DNA from: a virus
Strand: one strand, 5' to 3'
DNA length: 22,200 nt
IMG/VR virus record: IMGVR_UViG_3300047320_000365
Location: 1 to 22,200 of that record
Part shown: positions 14,315-21,990 of the stretch, piece after piece
Layout of the letters: the number at the start of each line of letters is the position of its first letter
Position numbering within the stretch: the first letter of the stretch is position 1
The notes under the pieces: generated by a model
Databases searched by the model: none
The model's input: only the letters and a program-made list of their open reading frames with translations
What the model was told of the DNA's origin: nothing
Translations under genes and position numbers: made by a program

Positions 14315-14331
14315 TAAAGGTCTTGCTATCC

Positions 14332-15126
14332 ATGTCTTCACCTATCATCCCTTGGATGGGCGGCAAACGCCGCCTGGCCGATCGCCTTATCCCGCTGTTT
14401 CCACCCCACGAATGCTACGTCGAAGTCTTTGCCGGCGGCGCCGCGTTGTATTTCATGCGACCTCAGGCGGCGCCCGTTGAAGTGCTCAACGACATCAATG
14501 GCGACCTGGTGACGCTGTACCGCGTCGTACAGAACCACCTCGAGGAGTTCGTGCGTCAGTTCAAGTGGGCACTCAGCTCACGCCAGGTATTCGAGTGGCA
14601 GAAAATGACCCGCGTCGAAACCCTCACCGACATTCAGCGCGCCGCGCGATTCTTCTACTTGCAGCATCATGCCTTCGCCGGCAAGGTGTCCGGGCAGACT
14701 TTCGGTACCGCCACCACCGGCCCGGCCATCAACCTGTTGCGGATCGAGGAAAACCTTTCGGCCGCGTGGCAGCGTCTGTCTGGCACCTACGTTGAAAATC
14801 TGCCCTGGCTGGAGTGCGCTGAACGCTATGACCGTGCCCACACCTTCCACTACATGGATCCGCCTTATTGGCAGACTGCCGGCTATGGGGTGGACTTTCC
14901 GTTTGAAAACTACGAGCGCATGGCTGACTTCATGCGCCGCTGCAAGGGGAGGGTGATGGTCAGCATCAACGACCACCCGGACATCCGCCGGGTGTTCGAG
15001 GGCTTTCATTTCGAGACGCTGGATATCCGCTACAGCAACACCAATCAGCGGCAGGGTAAGGCTGAGGTGAGCGGTGAGTTGGTGATCATGAACTGGGAGC
15101 CAGTAGTACTTGGAGGGCTGTTTTAA
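14332..15126 (+). CDS. dam: DNA adenine methylase, class D12 (Dam family)
   Basis: A 264-residue protein. The start is ATG 14332 with AAAGG 11 nt upstream; an in-frame TTG at 14323 is too close to that site. The N-terminus IIPWMGGKRRLADRLIPLFP and VEVFAGGAALYF (residues 31-41, motif I, SAM binding) with MDPPY (residues 175-179, motif IV, catalytic) identify an N6-adenine methyltransferase of the D12 class. The spacing is normal for the family, and the protein appears intact. No cognate restriction gene is adjacent, so it is probably an orphan phage methylase that protects phage DNA or alters host regulation. It has a LexA box directly upstream, unlike the tail genes. It is the last phage-like gene before a broken host gene. 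Confidence 0.9.
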   Translation: MSSPIIPWMGGKRRLADRLIPLFPPHECYVEVFAGGAALYFMRPQAAPVEVLNDINGDLVTLYRVVQNHLEEFVRQFKWALSSRQVFEWQKMTRVETLTDIQRAARFFYLQHHAFAGKVSGQTFGTATTGPAINLLRIEENLSAAWQRLSGTYVENLPWLECAERYDRAHTFHYMDPPYWQTAGYGVDFPFENYERMADFMRRCKGRVMVSINDHPDIRRVFEGFHFETLDIRYSNTNQRQGKAEVSGELVIMNWEPVVLGGLF

Positions 15127-15619: not shown

Positions 15620-16180
15620 ATGGCCTATAGAAACGGAAATTACTGTGCATTTTATGTTTCAGAGCCTTTTAGCCTTAGCTCTCTCGGTGCATATGCCACC
15701 AAGGATTTCGTTTACTACAACACATTAAAGGCTTGGAAAGGGCAAGACACGTCTTTTCCTTTTATCGATTCTCACGAAAAGACATATAGTGTTCGAGACG
15801 GTAGCAACTGGGAAGCCACTCTAAAACCTAGGCTTCAAGAGCGCCTTAGAAGTTCAAAAAATATCATTCTATTTCTTAGCTCAAGAACTATGAACTCCCA
15901 GGCACTTAGGGAAGAGGTTAGGTACGGAGTTGAAGTGCAGTCCTTACCTGTAATTGTCATCTACCCCGACTATGAAACTAAGGAGAGCCTGCTGCTGAAC
16001 GGTATATTGAAGCCGCAAATTAAATCGCTATGGGATAAACTACCTGTTTTCCGTGACTCTATGGGGAAAGTTCCAACGCTACACATCCCAATGAATAAAG
16101 ATCTCATAAAAAAATCGTTGCAAGATACAGGCTTCACTGTGAATAGTCCAAACGAGGTCGACATATATCGTTACAAATAG
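15620..16180 (+). CDS. thsB: Thoeris ThsB-like TIR-domain protein (MTH538/DUF1863 type)
   Basis: A 186-residue single-domain protein with a strong Shine-Dalgarno (AAAGGAG, spacer 6). The ThsB family pattern is clear: YYNTLKAWKGQD (residues 32-43), FPFIDSHEK (47-54), RDGSNWEATLKPRLQERLRS (59-78), SKNIILFLSS (79-88), then ALREEVRYGVE (95-105). Glu99, or Glu98, aligns with the catalytic glutamate of TIR NADases. In Thoeris, ThsB senses infection and converts NAD+ into an ADPR-type signal. The partner encoded 46 nt downstream is a macro-domain membrane protein, which makes this a type II system; in that type the signal is reported to be histidine-ADPR. The gene is clearly more AT-rich than the phage genes, suggesting separate acquisition. 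Confidence 0.92.
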   Translation: MAYRNGNYCAFYVSEPFSLSSLGAYATKDFVYYNTLKAWKGQDTSFPFIDSHEKTYSVRDGSNWEATLKPRLQERLRSSKNIILFLSSRTMNSQALREEVRYGVEVQSLPVIVIYPDYETKESLLLNGILKPQIKSLWDKLPVFRDSMGKVPTLHIPMNKDLIKKSLQDTGFTVNSPNEVDIYRYK

Positions 16181-16226: not shown

Positions 16227-17063
16227 ATGCCAAAGGTTCGATTTTTTGATCGGAGAGTCATAAGGCAGTTTCTTGAATACATATCGGCAATATCAACGGC
16301 GCTTTCGCTTTTTCTGATTTTCGTAGATATTCCTGAGAAAGTAAAACTTCTTGTTGGAGTGGTATTTGTTCTTGGGCTAGTTGTGAGCTATATCGTGTTA
16401 TGGCTTCACTCCGCTACCCTTGAGAATGTCGAACTAAACATTGAGGGTAGCACCGTCACGATCAAGACTGGCGATATTTTTCTGGAGGCCGGCTTTAAGG
16501 TAATTGCCTTTAATGAGTACTTCGACACCCTGGTTGATAACAAGATAATATCCGACGAGTCTCTTAATGGCATTTTTATAAATAAGTTGTTCCCGAGGTC
16601 AGTTCAGGAGCTTGACGATCACATTTCCTCATATAATTTTGATGATGAGGACGTTGTTTGTGATAATAATGACAGAAAATTTGGAAAGAAGCGCAAGTAT
16701 AACATCGGGACAATATGTCTCTGCAATGAATACATCCTTGCAGCTTTTTCAAAATTCGATGATAGCAATCGCGCCCAGCTCACCATGCCAGAATACTTGG
16801 AGTTTCTCATTAAATTCTGGGATAAGGTTAATAAGGTTTACGCGCAAAAGAGTGTGTCTGTTCCAATATTTGGGTCGGGAATAACTCGTATAAAAGAGCA
16901 TAAAAATATTTCTGACGAAGAACTTCTTAAAATTATGCTCTGGACTTTCAGGATTAGTGAGATGCGGTTTAAGTATCCCGCAAAGCTCGCAATCGTTATT
17001 CATGAAAGCAAGATTAATCAGATTAACCTCTTGGATATTAAGTCTGCCAGGAATGGTCTTTGA
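16227..17063 (+). CDS. thsA: Thoeris ThsA-like effector: two TM helices plus macro domain (type II)
   Basis: A 278-residue protein with AAGGG ahead of ATG 16227. Two hydrophobic helices at about residues 14-34 and 39-61 are followed by a cytosolic domain. This has macro-domain landmarks: TIKTGDIF (78-85; GDI motif), GFKVIAFNEYFDTLVDN (89-105; equivalent of the VNAAN strand), and VPIFGSGITRI (212-222; phosphate-binding loop). This TM-macro architecture (DUF6430-type) is that of type II ThsA. Known role: the macro domain binds the TIR-made ADPR derivative and the membrane part then harms the infected cell. Gene order, spacing and similar base composition make it an operon with the TIR gene. It appears intact. 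Confidence 0.9.
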   Translation: MPKVRFFDRRVIRQFLEYISAISTALSLFLIFVDIPEKVKLLVGVVFVLGLVVSYIVLWLHSATLENVELNIEGSTVTIKTGDIFLEAGFKVIAFNEYFDTLVDNKIISDESLNGIFINKLFPRSVQELDDHISSYNFDDEDVVCDNNDRKFGKKRKYNIGTICLCNEYILAAFSKFDDSNRAQLTMPEYLEFLIKFWDKVNKVYAQKSVSVPIFGSGITRIKEHKNISDEELLKIMLWTFRISEMRFKYPAKLAIVIHESKINQINLLDIKSARNGL

Positions 17064-17154: not shown

Positions 17155-17200
17155 TGGGTTGTCGATTGCTGTCCGTCACAACAGGTAGAAATCGGCCAAG
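17155..17200 (+). repeat. Intergenic repeat copy A (46-bp family)
   Basis: The ~46-bp stretch contains GTCGATTGCTG, TCACAACAGG and AATCGGCC in that order and aligns without gaps to copies at 19125-19168 (+) and 20319-20365 (-). It is noncoding. Confidence 0.65.
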
Positions 17201-17391: not shown

Positions 17392-17397
17392 TATGAT
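17392..17397 (+). promoter_or_regulatory. -10-like TATGAT ahead of the 527-residue gene
   Basis: TATGAT lies 34 nt before the proposed GTG start and overlaps an in-frame ATG at 17393, which argues against that ATG being the start. No good -35 hexamer is seen at the usual distance, so this is a weak call. Confidence 0.35.
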
Positions 17398-17431
17398 ACG
17401 CCGCATATTGAGCAAGCGGAGGAGTGCAACC

Positions 17432-19015
17432 GTGATATCGAAAGTTGCTAAATCAGATGATTCAAAGAAGGTAGCGGCTATTACACCCGCGAGCAAGTCT
17501 GAGACTTGGTTTCGTAAACTCATTCGCAAAGTCCAATGGCGCGCACATTGGCTACTCCCTAATATCATATCAGGCCCGCCAGGAGACGATTCAACATTCT
17601 ATAAAGAGTCAGATGTCAAATCCAATCTTGAATCCTGCGCTCCCGAAACCGAAGAATTGCGGATTCAAGTTGTATGGGGCGCAGAAGTTTATGGTCCGTC
17701 CGAAACCGACAGCCTGTGCGAAAATTTGGCACGCTTGAGATGGACTGCTGGTTCGGGGTTCGGCAAGCGCGACGGGGCCGCTGACTGGGTTCGCCGGCAA
17801 CGTTCATACGGTCAAGGGGGCTGGTATAACGTAGGGATGGTCGTAAGTCCCAGTGATAGCCATAAATACATTCTTCCTACTAACGAGCTCCGGCTGCCTG
17901 AAAAGGTTGAGTACTTGATAGTCCAAGTTTTCCAACTGACACCGGCTCTCACATGCGTTGTTATAGGCTTCGCACTCAAGGAAAACCTATCAGTAATTTA
18001 CGAATCCGAATTGAAAAAGAGCAGGATTGGCCATTACGTACGATCTTCAAAACGGAGCATTTTGAGGATCTCGCCACAGGAGCTAAAAAAGCGCTCTATT
18101 ATCAAATCGAGAGAGGCAGTTCGGAGCATCGCGCAAACTTGGTTCCAGTCAAACCTTCCGGGATACTTTTGCAGCTCTGATATTCATCGCTTACCTACCG
18201 CCGAACTTATTACGACTGCCACCGAACCGCTCCTCCCTGGAGAAAAGATTAGATTTAACGCTAGCGAACGCTGGAAGGATGTTATTGCGTCTTCTCGCCC
18301 ATATGACATATGGAGTAGCCCAGACGGCGCAGGAGTCCGATTTACGAGCGACCGCAATGGATTGAGGGATGAGCCGCTTCATCTTATTGTTTCCCTATGC
18401 AAATCAAATGTATCAGATGAGGCAATCAAATACAGGGGGGAAAGAAAGAATAGGGTCTTTATATCACACAGTGCAGATCTAATGGCGGGAATAATTAGCA
18501 ACTTTGCGAGCATAGGCTTCCTAACGGAAACCCTAAAAAACATAAGGCTTAGCCGAGCCTCGTTAGAAATCCATAAAGTAAACCGGGGTAAAGGGCTACA
18601 TGCACTGGAAAAGATTCAGGCTTTTTTCGACCGATCTCTTGGTACACCCGCGATTGCAGCGGAACTGCGAAGCCGGTCAGAGCATGTGGGCAATTTTGCG
18701 TATAACTGTGACACCTTTACTGCCCCAAACTGGCGACCGGGTGATGCAAAGCGCACAATAGCAGAGGAGCTTTGTGAACATTCAAACTCTCTTGCAAGCC
18801 AAGTAATAATTGAAGAGCACTCCTTGCGTGAACATTTAGAACAGCTATCAAGTATTATCAGTGTTCGAGAGAGCATCAAGGCTCAACGCAGGATGGAAGT
18901 ACTGACAATTGGCGCACTACTAGTGGCGGTTGCGTCCACGGCGATAGCGGCCACTCAAAATCCCGATTGGTCCAAAGCAATGGTAGTGTTTTTAACTAAC
19001 TTACTTAACATTTGA
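17432..19015 (+). CDS. Unrecognised 527-residue protein with C-terminal membrane segment
   Basis: The start is set at GTG 17432, which has GGAGGAG with a 7-nt spacer; an upstream in-frame ATG at 17393 lacks a proper site. I do not recognise the family. The N-terminal ~45 residues are basic. Residues ~74-190 look like a folded domain (LRIQVVWGAEVYGPS; LRWTAGSGFGKRDGAADWVRR; YGQGGWYNVGM). Residues 195-230 are very basic. Around 455-485 there is a likely coiled coil (EEHSLREHLEQLSSIISVRE) leading into one hydrophobic helix at ~489-507 (VLTIGALLVAVASTAIAA) and a short tail. A large soluble body with a C-terminal anchor is a layout shared by membrane-acting defence effectors and by CorA-like ends. 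Base use is AT-rich like the Thoeris genes. A defence role is only inferred from location. Confidence 0.8.
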   Translation: MISKVAKSDDSKKVAAITPASKSETWFRKLIRKVQWRAHWLLPNIISGPPGDDSTFYKESDVKSNLESCAPETEELRIQVVWGAEVYGPSETDSLCENLARLRWTAGSGFGKRDGAADWVRRQRSYGQGGWYNVGMVVSPSDSHKYILPTNELRLPEKVEYLIVQVFQLTPALTCVVIGFALKENLSVIYESELKKSRIGHYVRSSKRSILRISPQELKKRSIIKSREAVRSIAQTWFQSNLPGYFCSSDIHRLPTAELITTATEPLLPGEKIRFNASERWKDVIASSRPYDIWSSPDGAGVRFTSDRNGLRDEPLHLIVSLCKSNVSDEAIKYRGERKNRVFISHSADLMAGIISNFASIGFLTETLKNIRLSRASLEIHKVNRGKGLHALEKIQAFFDRSLGTPAIAAELRSRSEHVGNFAYNCDTFTAPNWRPGDAKRTIAEELCEHSNSLASQVIIEEHSLREHLEQLSSIISVRESIKAQRRMEVLTIGALLVAVASTAIAATQNPDWSKAMVVFLTNLLNI

Positions 19016-19124: not shown

Positions 19125-19168
19125 ATGGGTCGATTTCAGTCAGTCGCGACAGGCAACAATCGGCCGAG
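19125..19168 (+). repeat. Intergenic repeat copy B (46-bp family)
   Basis: ATGGGTCGATTTCAGTCAGT continues into CGCGACAGGCAACAATCGGC. It aligns without gaps to copies A (17155-17200) and C (20319-20365, opposite strand), sharing GGTCGATT, CRACAGG and CGGCC. Confidence 0.65.
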
Positions 19169-19441: not shown

Positions 19442-20173
19442 TTAGAAGACATTTTTGATGAGCCAGTCAGCGCCTTCAATTAGCTCCTGCACTTGCTCTT
19501 TTGTGGGTTCTTCTTCTTTTCTGTGAGAGCAAATATTGCGAATGTCTGCGAGATAAGTGATCTTTCTCCAAGTGGGAGTGTCAATCACTGTCGCATTTTT
19601 AAGAGGATCGTTTAGATCTGAAATTGTAGGGTTTCTCTTTGCGACTTTTATCGCATGGTTATCCGCTACTTTTTGAAGGTGCCCCTCGATAACTACGCCC
19701 ATTAGCGCGCCTGCTGCTCTGGGGCTGATTTTGATAAGCTGTTTGGCTACAACGATTTCACTATCTTGAATTTCTGCATACAGTTCATCTTCAATGTTTC
19801 CTAACAAGGACTCGGCACGATCAATGATGGACTTGAAAATGGTCAATTGGTTAAAGAAAGCTTGAACGACTTGAACTCTACTGTTGAATTCCGGGTAGTT
19901 GAACTTGCTGGGTACCACACCTTTAAAGTAGTCTTGAATAGCATAGGTTCCGTACCCTAGGGATTTTCTCTTTGGATCAATCTCGTAATAGCCGCGAAAT
20001 TCAATAATCCGGTCTGAAGCCAAATGTTGAACAGCCCGTAAAGCCTTTGTGTACCAAGACTGATATTTATACTGAAAGGACTCATTTTTGCCGTCATGAA
20101 ACTCCTGGCACACCTCGGCGCCAGAGTTGTAAAGATCTGTCAGTTCTTTTGTAATTAGTTTCTTTCGTGACAT
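19442..20173 (-). CDS. HEPN-like protein with R-X4-H motif (DUF4145-like end)
   Basis: A 243-residue protein starting at the ATG whose complement is 20171-20173; only a weak AGAAGA site precedes it. The C-terminal ~90 residues have the look of HEPN/DUF4145-type helical domains: PRAAGALMGVVIEGHLQKVA, then a LADIRNICSHRKEEEPTKEQ segment. RNICSH (Arg212, Asn213, His217) fits the R-phi-X3-H catalytic motif of HEPN ribonucleases, including the polar residue after Arg. The N-terminal ~150 residues are an unassigned, mostly helical region. HEPN proteins are common RNases in abortive-infection and toxin-antitoxin systems. No small antidote gene is next to it. It could also be a non-catalytic HEPN domain. 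It sits between the 527-residue orphan and a TIR operon. Confidence 0.78.
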   Translation of the reverse strand: MSRKKLITKELTDLYNSGAEVCQEFHDGKNESFQYKYQSWYTKALRAVQHLASDRIIEFRGYYEIDPKRKSLGYGTYAIQDYFKGVVPSKFNYPEFNSRVQVVQAFFNQLTIFKSIIDRAESLLGNIEDELYAEIQDSEIVVAKQLIKISPRAAGALMGVVIEGHLQKVADNHAIKVAKRNPTISDLNDPLKNATVIDTPTWRKITYLADIRNICSHRKEEEPTKEQVQELIEGADWLIKNVF

Positions 20174-20318: not shown

Positions 20319-20365
20319 CCTCTGGCCGTTTGCTGCCTGTTGCGAAGGGCAGCAATCGACCCATT
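20319..20365 (-). repeat. Intergenic repeat copy C (46-bp family)
   Basis: Read on the - strand it gives AATGGGTCGATTGCTGCCC, then TTCGCAACAGGCAGCAAACG and GCCAGAGG. It aligns to copies A and B. It lies in the 267-nt gene-free spacer (20174-20440) upstream of the HEPN gene and downstream of the TIR gene. Confidence 0.65.
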
Positions 20366-20440: not shown

Positions 20441-21337
20441 TTAAGGGCGCATCAGTTTGTTCCAATCGACGTTATGACCAGCGGCTTGCAACTCTCGCCC
20501 TAAAGCTTGTTTCCAGCCACCCGTGTCATCCATCGGTTCCCATACCACGCCCGCAAAATCACTTGGAATTTCTAGCTGTCCGCGTTTCAGGGCACAGACT
20601 TTGTCACGCCCCAGACGTCCAATAAAGTAGCCCAGTTCTAGTAACACATTTTGTCGGGCGCGAGGCTCCAGGACGCCTCCCTTTACACTGCCTTCATCGT
20701 CAGGAGTAAGAAGTACCACGGCAAAACTCACATCACCGTGTGCTTCCACCTTTTCGATTACGGTACGGCCTTGGTTGGCTTGCTCATGCAATATAACTGC
20801 TTCAAAACCCATTCGCTCAAGGAAGCGCGCAACGGTTTCGCGAGCACCGTCGTCATGGCCATGAACAATGAAAATCTTGTTGGAAATTGGTAGTTTCAAC
20901 TGTGGCTTAACCTCCCCATGTGTCTGGACATAGAGCTTGTAATCCCGCACAAAGGGGATGATAAGTTGCGCTGTCAATGCGTGTATTGCGGATATTACTT
21001 TGTTACCTGAATAAAAATAATGGTGACCAAAATTAATTACATAATCCGAGTCAGCAGCCAGCTTATCTATTAGCAGGAGCGTAAGACCCAAGGTCTGCTC
21101 ATGGTCATCAGGCCAGAGGAGAGAGGCACTACCGACCATGCCTCCACTAGTGCTTTCGCTTGCTTCTAAAAAGCCTTCTAGGTCGACGCTTGCGGTCAAA
21201 ACGCTATTAACGGCCTCCAAATCAGGGTGATGGAGCAGGCTAGCGAGCTTTTTTAAAGGGCGCTCAAAAGTTTGAAGCTGGGCACCTTGTAGATCCAGAA
21301 CGGAGTTGTTGATCTGTGAAAACAAGTCTATGGCCAT
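20441..21337 (-). CDS. TIR-like nucleotide-binding protein (PF10137, CAP12/Pycsar-effector type TIR)
   Basis: A 298-residue protein. The C-terminal half is a TIR-like domain of the predicted nucleotide-binding type: NKIFIVHGHDDGARETVARF (153-172), LERMGFEAVILHEQANQGRT (173-192), SFAVVLLTPDDEG (204-216), then RARQNVLLELGYFIGRLGR (226-244), where Glu234 is the expected catalytic residue, and a DFAGVVWEPMD end. The family cleaves NAD+ or binds nucleotides; in CBASS and Pycsar it is an effector. No cyclase gene is visible here. The N-terminal ~150 residues are an unassigned helical region that may be the sensor. Its ATG shares one base with the stop of the 91-residue gene (TAATG), so the two are translationally coupled. 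Confidence 0.88.
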   Translation of the reverse strand: MAIDLFSQINNSVLDLQGAQLQTFERPLKKLASLLHHPDLEAVNSVLTASVDLEGFLEASESTSGGMVGSASLLWPDDHEQTLGLTLLLIDKLAADSDYVINFGHHYFYSGNKVISAIHALTAQLIIPFVRDYKLYVQTHGEVKPQLKLPISNKIFIVHGHDDGARETVARFLERMGFEAVILHEQANQGRTVIEKVEAHGDVSFAVVLLTPDDEGSVKGGVLEPRARQNVLLELGYFIGRLGRDKVCALKRGQLEIPSDFAGVVWEPMDDTGGWKQALGRELQAAGHNVDWNKLMRP

Positions 21338-21612
21338 TATTCAGCTCCCTTCAGCCGAGACTCTGCTGCGCGGTCGATGATGCTTGCGCGATATTGCGCC
21401 TTCATCTGCTCGGCAAGAGGACCAATGATCGGATTTGAATTATGGTGTCCGACGCGCTCGTCAATAACGGTCACGACCTGCTGAATAGCCGCCTCGATAC
21501 TCGCAGGATCATAGGGATCGAAGTTCACCGTACAAAGATCACCATCCAAGCTTTGAAGTACTTTCTGTGCTTCGGCCATCTGACGCTGAAGCTTTTCGAG
21601 TCCTTTGATCAT
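21337..21612 (-). CDS. 91-residue protein of unknown function, coupled to the TIR gene
   Basis: The start is placed at the second in-frame ATG (first base 21612), which has AAGGA with an 8-nt spacer; the ATG at 21621 overlaps that site. The protein has a charged N-terminal helix (MIKGLEKLQRQMAEAQKVLQ), a middle FDPYDPASIEAAIQQVVTVI, and a helical C-terminus (QMKAQYRASIIDRAAESRLKG). I do not recognise a family. Its small size, helical character and TAATG overlap with the TIR gene suggest a partner protein made in fixed ratio, such as an inhibitor, sensor or adaptor. This is inference from gene order only. Confidence 0.8.
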   Translation of the reverse strand: MIKGLEKLQRQMAEAQKVLQSLDGDLCTVNFDPYDPASIEAAIQQVVTVIDERVGHHNSNPIIGPLAEQMKAQYRASIIDRAAESRLKGAE

Positions 21613-21802
21613 AGCCAACATCCTTATGAGTGAGAAAGAACATTATCACTAATAGAGCAGCTGCGGGAGCTGCACTGGCGGGGGAGAACGGACTGAATAG
21701 ACGAATCAATCGCTGAGGCTAACCCCTGACGTTCCGTGCTGTGAACAAAGGTGCTCTTGGTCAGTCAGCAGCTGTTGATTCGAGGAGTGACCGCGTCTGG
21801 CC
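21613..21802. other. Upstream region of the TIR operon
   Basis: No gene is visible. The - strand sequence just upstream of the 91-residue gene contains a TGATAATG that could be a -10; no clear -35 is seen. A GCAGCT/AGCTGC hairpin (21657-21673, 5-nt loop) lies further upstream. The leftmost edge of a mobile element begins at 21803. Confidence 0.45.
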
Positions 21803-21978
21803 GATTCTGTTGAAAAAGTCGGTCTGCCCAAACTGCCTGATCATTGACTGGTGAAAGCGCCTTTTTTGCATGCGGCTACGTGAAATCCGAGTCGAAGCCT
21901 CTGCCAAAAGTAAAGATTTCAATCTCGGACGTGTACTTTTCTGATGCGCAAACCCTGGCCGACTTTTTCAACAGAATC
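21803..21978. mobile_element. 176-bp MITE-like element or IS relic with 18-bp perfect inverted ends
   Basis: GATTCTGTTGAAAAAGTC at 21803-21820 is exactly inverted as GACTTTTTCAACAGAATC at 21961-21978. Both ends are flanked by GGCC (21799-21802 and 21979-21982), which fits a 4-bp target duplication, though GGCC is its own complement and could instead extend the ends to 22 bp. Rejoining the flanks gives TCTGGCCGATTGCAGTC, which resembles the local intergenic repeat. The 140-bp interior has no transposase. TTGAAAAAGTC-type ends occur on insertion sequences in Pseudomonas, but I cannot name the family. Confidence 0.68.
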
Positions 21979-21990
21979 GGCCGATTGCAG

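Follow-up and report, generated by a model that had tools for sequence, protein, structure and literature searches.

Among the described systems closest to the protein considered here, Tha is a prophage protein whose C-terminal HEPN domain carries the motif RNSIMH and whose RNase activity is switched on by phage tail proteins (PMC11087260). The DUF4145-like HEPN family (PF13643, clan CL0291; Anantharaman et al. 2013, PMC3710099) has the RN-x3-H motif in common with our protein; the motif is missing in about 20% of DUF4145 domains, and some HEPN domains bind nucleic acid only (PMC3710099). HepT of the HEPN/MNT modules is built on the same fold, and BxaP, a BREX-associated protein with DUF4145 and HEAT-like parts, has an experimentally supported anti-phage function (PMC10799925). 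Defence hotspots are, moreover, described for P2-like phages (PMC9122126).

The locus analyzed here belongs to a P2-like prophage and lies in a 22.2-kb virus record with a P2-type tail module (gpU-like and gpD-like genes, tail sheath, and tail fibre), of which the whole stretch of 22,200 nucleotides is referred to as the window. The gene of interest is found at the position and with the R-N-x3-H sequence at residues 212 to 217 that the original prediction had given, and its parts are as follows.

19442-20173, minus strand: HEPN (DUF4145-like) protein gene, ATG start, 243 amino acids, from the ORF list; homologues of 60-90% identity have the same start
19820-20173, minus strand: N-terminal helical domain, residues 1-118, from conservation and AlphaFold2 helices; candidate sensing or regulatory part
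19442-19819, minus strand: HEPN domain, residues ~119-243, from AlphaFold2, Foldseek, and Pfam DUF4145; core of four helices, with a short insert helix at 184-193
19523-19540, minus strand: RNICSH (R212-H217), predicted HEPN catalytic Rx4H motif, from sequence, invariance, and position in the model

The gene sits in a cargo region that follows the P2-type tail genes U and D and in which a D12 DNA methyltransferase, ThsB, a macro-domain ThsA, a 540-amino-acid protein, the HEPN gene, a PCTIR-type TIR protein, and a 94-amino-acid ORF follow one another. Three of these neighbours are recognizable as follows.

15620-16180, plus strand: Thoeris ThsB (Pfam ThsB_TIR 7e-25; PADLOC ThsB1 3.7e-76)
16227-17063, plus strand: Thoeris macro-domain ThsA (Pfam ThsA_Macro 1.7e-63; PADLOC ThsA1 2.9e-124)
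20441-21337, minus strand: TIR protein of the CAP12/Pycsar TIR family (PCTIR; PF10137 E 2.4e-38; PADLOC candidate PDC-S35 E 3e-70), outside the HEPN unit

Comparison with the known systems marks the protein, by the tests run, as a DUF4145-like member of the HEPN superfamily. Chromosomal and plasmid HEPN/DUF4145 proteins share its N-terminal layout (profile-profile probability 99.7%), whereas against the DUF4145 family at large it narrowly misses the Pfam cut-off, the model fails to match most of the prophage group, and the N-terminal domain has strongly conserved residues of its own. Tha-1 of Staphylococcus phage 80alpha (positions 1662-2567 of record L099) is likewise a single prophage protein, of 301 amino acids against 243 here; both have a C-terminal HEPN domain with RN-x3-H near the end, and Pfam gives DUF4145 as the best match for each. 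Their sequences nevertheless show no significant similarity (BLASTP E 5.0, hhalign probability 1.9%), and no overlapping antisense inhibitor gene like ith is present here. The protein is best read as functionally similar to Tha, with homology between the two only at superfamily level. With HepT (SO_3166, PDB 5yep) it shares the HEPN fold (Foldseek probability 0.99) and an Rx4H-type active site, but identity is about 13%, an additional N-terminal domain is present, and no MNT antitoxin gene accompanies it; it is not a HEPN/MNT module. BxaP has the DUF4145 domain in common with it, but there this domain is N-terminal, followed by the HEAT-like C-terminus in a BREX context, while here the order is reversed and no BREX system was seen in the window. 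PADLOC-DB 2.0.0 gave no convincing match to the protein (best HamB, E 0.007), and PDC-M05B was matched by 5 of 48 family members, at E 4e-4 at best. No characterization of the family was found in the literature searched.

Profile, profile-profile comparison, and predicted fold agree in identifying the C-terminal half as a HEPN domain. Residues 143-233 are matched by Pfam PF13643 (E 1.5e-4; 22.2 bits, where the cut-off is 23.1), and the same model matches 9 of 48 homologues at E 0.01 or better, while some family members match Pfam HEPN directly. The original prediction had set the motif after a DUF4145-like region; it instead lies within it. AlphaFold2 with 48 homologues modelled the whole protein at pLDDT 91.8 and pTM 0.62, the latter making the mutual placement of the two domains less sure, and the HEPN domain alone reached pLDDT 92.7. 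In the model, the HEPN bundle consists of helices 120-146, 151-172, 199-214, and 225-241, with R212 and N213 at the end of helix 3, H217 in the loop that follows, and E163 in helix 2, the same arrangement of motif and helices that is given for HEPN domains (PMC3710099). Since the bundle begins near residue 120, the non-HEPN part comprises about 118 residues and not the roughly 150 first proposed.

Foldseek comparison of the domain with the PDB returned HEPN or HepT-like structures at all of the best 11 ranks, among them AF0298 (TM 0.69), HepT SO_3166, YutE, and ST0689, with the sacsin HEPN domain and Csm6 ranking lower. The E-values were weak (0.06 and above), which is to be expected when a domain is short and helical, but the consistency of the HEPN matches and their probabilities of 0.93-1.00 for HEPN and HepT-like structures argue against a chance fold match. 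A sequence search of the PDB gave an insignificant match to CapR only, the profile search gave coiled-coil noise, and the viral structure library held no clear named relative.

The Rx4H motif is among the most conserved features of the protein in the homologue alignments. Its codons (CGC AAT ATT TGC TCT CAC, 19540-19523) encode residues 212-217, of which R212, C215, and H217 are identical in 48 of 48 aligned homologues spanning about 31-90% identity, and N213, like E163 of helix 2, is kept in 47 of the 48. A profile scan of viral contigs recovered 46 loci, every one of which carries RN[LIKM]C[SDG]H; nine of these (L038-L046) were found with the N-terminal pattern YQxWY only, so that the motif was not selected for, and several of the nine are near-identical to one another. 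A sister group, from Pseudomonas and betaproteobacterial genomes and an Acinetobacter plasmid, has the motif RN-x-AAH and aligns with the family over most of its length (hhalign 99.7%, E 9e-27); for its plasmid member, Pfam gives HEPN at 1.4e-9 and DUF4145 at 1.1e-7 (32.3 bits). In a joint alignment of 33 domain sequences with this group, five columns are invariant, and R212 and H217 are two of them. A motif of this kind is weak evidence alone, but its conservation across homologues rules out a chance origin. HEPN motifs are recognized as Rx4-6H with a polar residue after the arginine and conservation within the family, which describes RNICSH. E163 is a candidate for the conserved acid of helix 2 (151-172), although Q167 stands at +4, where the typical Ex3[KR] has K or R. 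The conservation looked for by the original prediction is thus present, and in the predicted monomer model the motif falls where HEPN active sites have it, at helix 3 and the loop after it; the RNA-cleaving effector stays a candidate, with catalysis predicted from sequence and model.

The N-terminal part (helices 3-26, 33-51, 53-61, and 98-118 in the AlphaFold2 model) is a conserved domain of its own. It has no Pfam name, and Y37, W40, R55, F59, D81, and Q109 are invariant among the aligned homologues. The conservation of Y37, W40, R55, F59, and D81 in particular suggests a candidate sensing function, and the domain as a whole would suit a sensor or a regulator.

Purifying selection acts on the gene, with a dN/dS of about 0.08 (dN 0.052, dS 0.64) relative to its closest relative, L002. 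Seven full-length relatives of 60-90% identity come from Pseudomonas, Paraburkholderia, metagenome-assembled genomes, and one viral contig, and a group of about 40% identity occurs in Pseudomonas genomes, where the distribution is patchy (a match at 38% identity or more in 7 of 399 genomes). Homologues are present in chromosomes and plasmids as well. Across many prophage and viral contigs they are single genes at differing sites, near terminase, tape measure, integrase, or Mor/lysis genes depending on the prophage, and this variation fits a moron. Homology to L002 extends past the gene by about 36 bp on the upstream side and 110 bp on the downstream side. A search of 50,697 phage records gave no match, so that the sources of the family here are prophage or viral contigs and genomes, and not annotated phage isolates. 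A promoter scan at the gene gave no sigma-70-like site and was uninformative.

The absence of a visible antidote, claimed from the start, holds within the tests run, which covered neighbours, antisense ORFs, Rfam RNAs, and repeats. Among 306 neighbouring ORFs from 61 loci, nothing recurred beyond genes common to related prophages or common phage genes, and a conserved partner gene was rejected on this basis. No MNT antitoxin gene adjoins the HEPN gene, whose neighbours are the 540-amino-acid orphan and the TIR protein. The former, a convergent gene, was discarded as a partner because it has no relatives in viral contigs and does not adjoin homologues, and the latter because a TIR relative occurs in only 2 of 7 homologue-bearing records, on other contigs. 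Antisense frames reach only 35-40 codons and are broken or lack conserved starts in homologues, so that a Tha-like antisense inhibitor is not conserved, and neither an Rfam match nor direct repeats were found around the gene that would indicate an antitoxin RNA. Four close relatives do have a second RN-x3-H protein near the gene.

L001, 6797-7396, and L037, 6782-7387: TM plus HEPN-like proteins with RN-x3-H, near the HEPN homologue
L004, 8815-9735: 306-amino-acid HEPN-like protein with RN-x3-H, near the HEPN homologue
L002, 6517-7299: 260-amino-acid HEPN-like protein with RN-x3-H, near the HEPN homologue

Three of these four proteins have hydrophobic segments. As they are unlike each other, except for the pair in L001 and L037, they are best seen as a clustering of HEPN genes and not as partners.

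When these results are taken together, the explanation that we favour, as the probable one, is a stand-alone prophage-borne HEPN RNase whose effect would be abortive infection or superinfection exclusion. A competing phage that infects the cell would trigger the protein, the C-terminal HEPN domain of which is predicted to dimerize, as is typical of HEPN RNases, which need no metal; R212 and H217, with assistance from N213 and from the acidic E163 of helix 2, would then cleave RNA, and the infected cell would stop growing or die. The N-terminal domain probably keeps the enzyme inactive, senses the trigger, or does both, which would explain a gene without a partner antidote. That the protein is an active RNase is very probable on the strength of its sequence and model, since the motif is invariant and mutational work exists for other HEPN RNases (PMC3710099). 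An anti-phage function is suggested with less assurance, though still as the likelier reading, by analogy with Tha (PMC11087260) and P2-like hotspots (PMC9122126) and by the cargo context and prophage distribution; the prophage location suits other moron functions as well. The weak Foldseek E-values, the inexact Ex3[KR] motif, and the lack of a good PADLOC match also count against the favoured explanation. It could be speculated further, and rather tentatively, that the protein is a separately evolved counterpart of Tha, representing a widespread, uncharacterized family of single-gene prophage immunity, mainly in Pseudomonadota, in which the N terminus directly senses phage and releases the fused HEPN RNase with no need of an antitoxin.

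As HEPN RNases are often toxins, and small unannotated antitoxins or RNAs are easily overlooked, the gene might instead be the toxin half of an addiction module whose antitoxin protein, antisense product, or RNA was missed. We regard this as unlikely, given that no neighbour recurs outside related prophages, that no MNT gene adjoins, that the antisense frames are broken or without starts in homologues, that Rfam matches and direct repeats are lacking around the gene, and that homology to L002 ends so close to it on both sides. Similarly improbable is an RNase of the phage life cycle or host takeover, or an RNA-binding regulator, that would serve the prophage itself and not defence; the presence of the gene in many prophages would accommodate such a role, and HEPN domains have RNA-processing or RNA-binding roles outside conflict as well (PMC3710099), but the differing sites in unrelated phages, the chromosomal and plasmid homologues, and the defence genes among the cargo neighbours here all speak against it. 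The least credible proposal, and a very improbable one, is a catalytically dead HEPN domain in a structural or nucleic-acid-binding protein, as some HEPN families have lost the motif and kept binding only (PMC3710099); here homologues of about 31-90% identity keep the motif without exception, as does the sister group, and motif-less DUF4145 domains argue little against such a member.

If the stand-alone effector is indeed correct, a prophage-borne family present in at least 46 viral contigs would be added to the single-protein anti-phage HEPN RNases. The highly conserved, intact N-terminal domain would predict a definable trigger, and a direct test would be possible of how a HEPN RNase stays silent without an antidote. 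As the HEPN domain is of a well-known type, the general idea is already known.

Several further observations concern the cargo region. The 540-amino-acid ORF (17393-19015) has a hydrophobic, probably membrane-spanning C terminus, gave no convincing match in Pfam, PADLOC, PHROG, or NCBIfam and no relative in viral contigs, and is a defence candidate by position only. The PCTIR gene and the overlapping upstream 94-amino-acid ORF (20441-21621 together) are possibly a two-gene unit. The DNA methyltransferase gene lies at 14323-15126, near the HEPN gene, and methyltransferase genes likewise lie near homologues in L039, L041-L045, L066, and L075; counted as independent cases, there are about four outside the window, compared with 2 among 433 ORFs farther away, which is not clearly significant. 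At 21798-21990 there is a repeat of about 190 bp with terminal inverted repeats of about 25 bp, of which three of four Pseudomonas genomes searched hold several copies each, often clustered, and in L006/L098 the HEPN homologue lies between two copies in direct orientation. Related repeats of 38-41 bp stand between cargo genes at 17161-17198, 19125-19165, and 20323-20364, with the HEPN gene among those flanked, and may mark or mobilize inserted genes.
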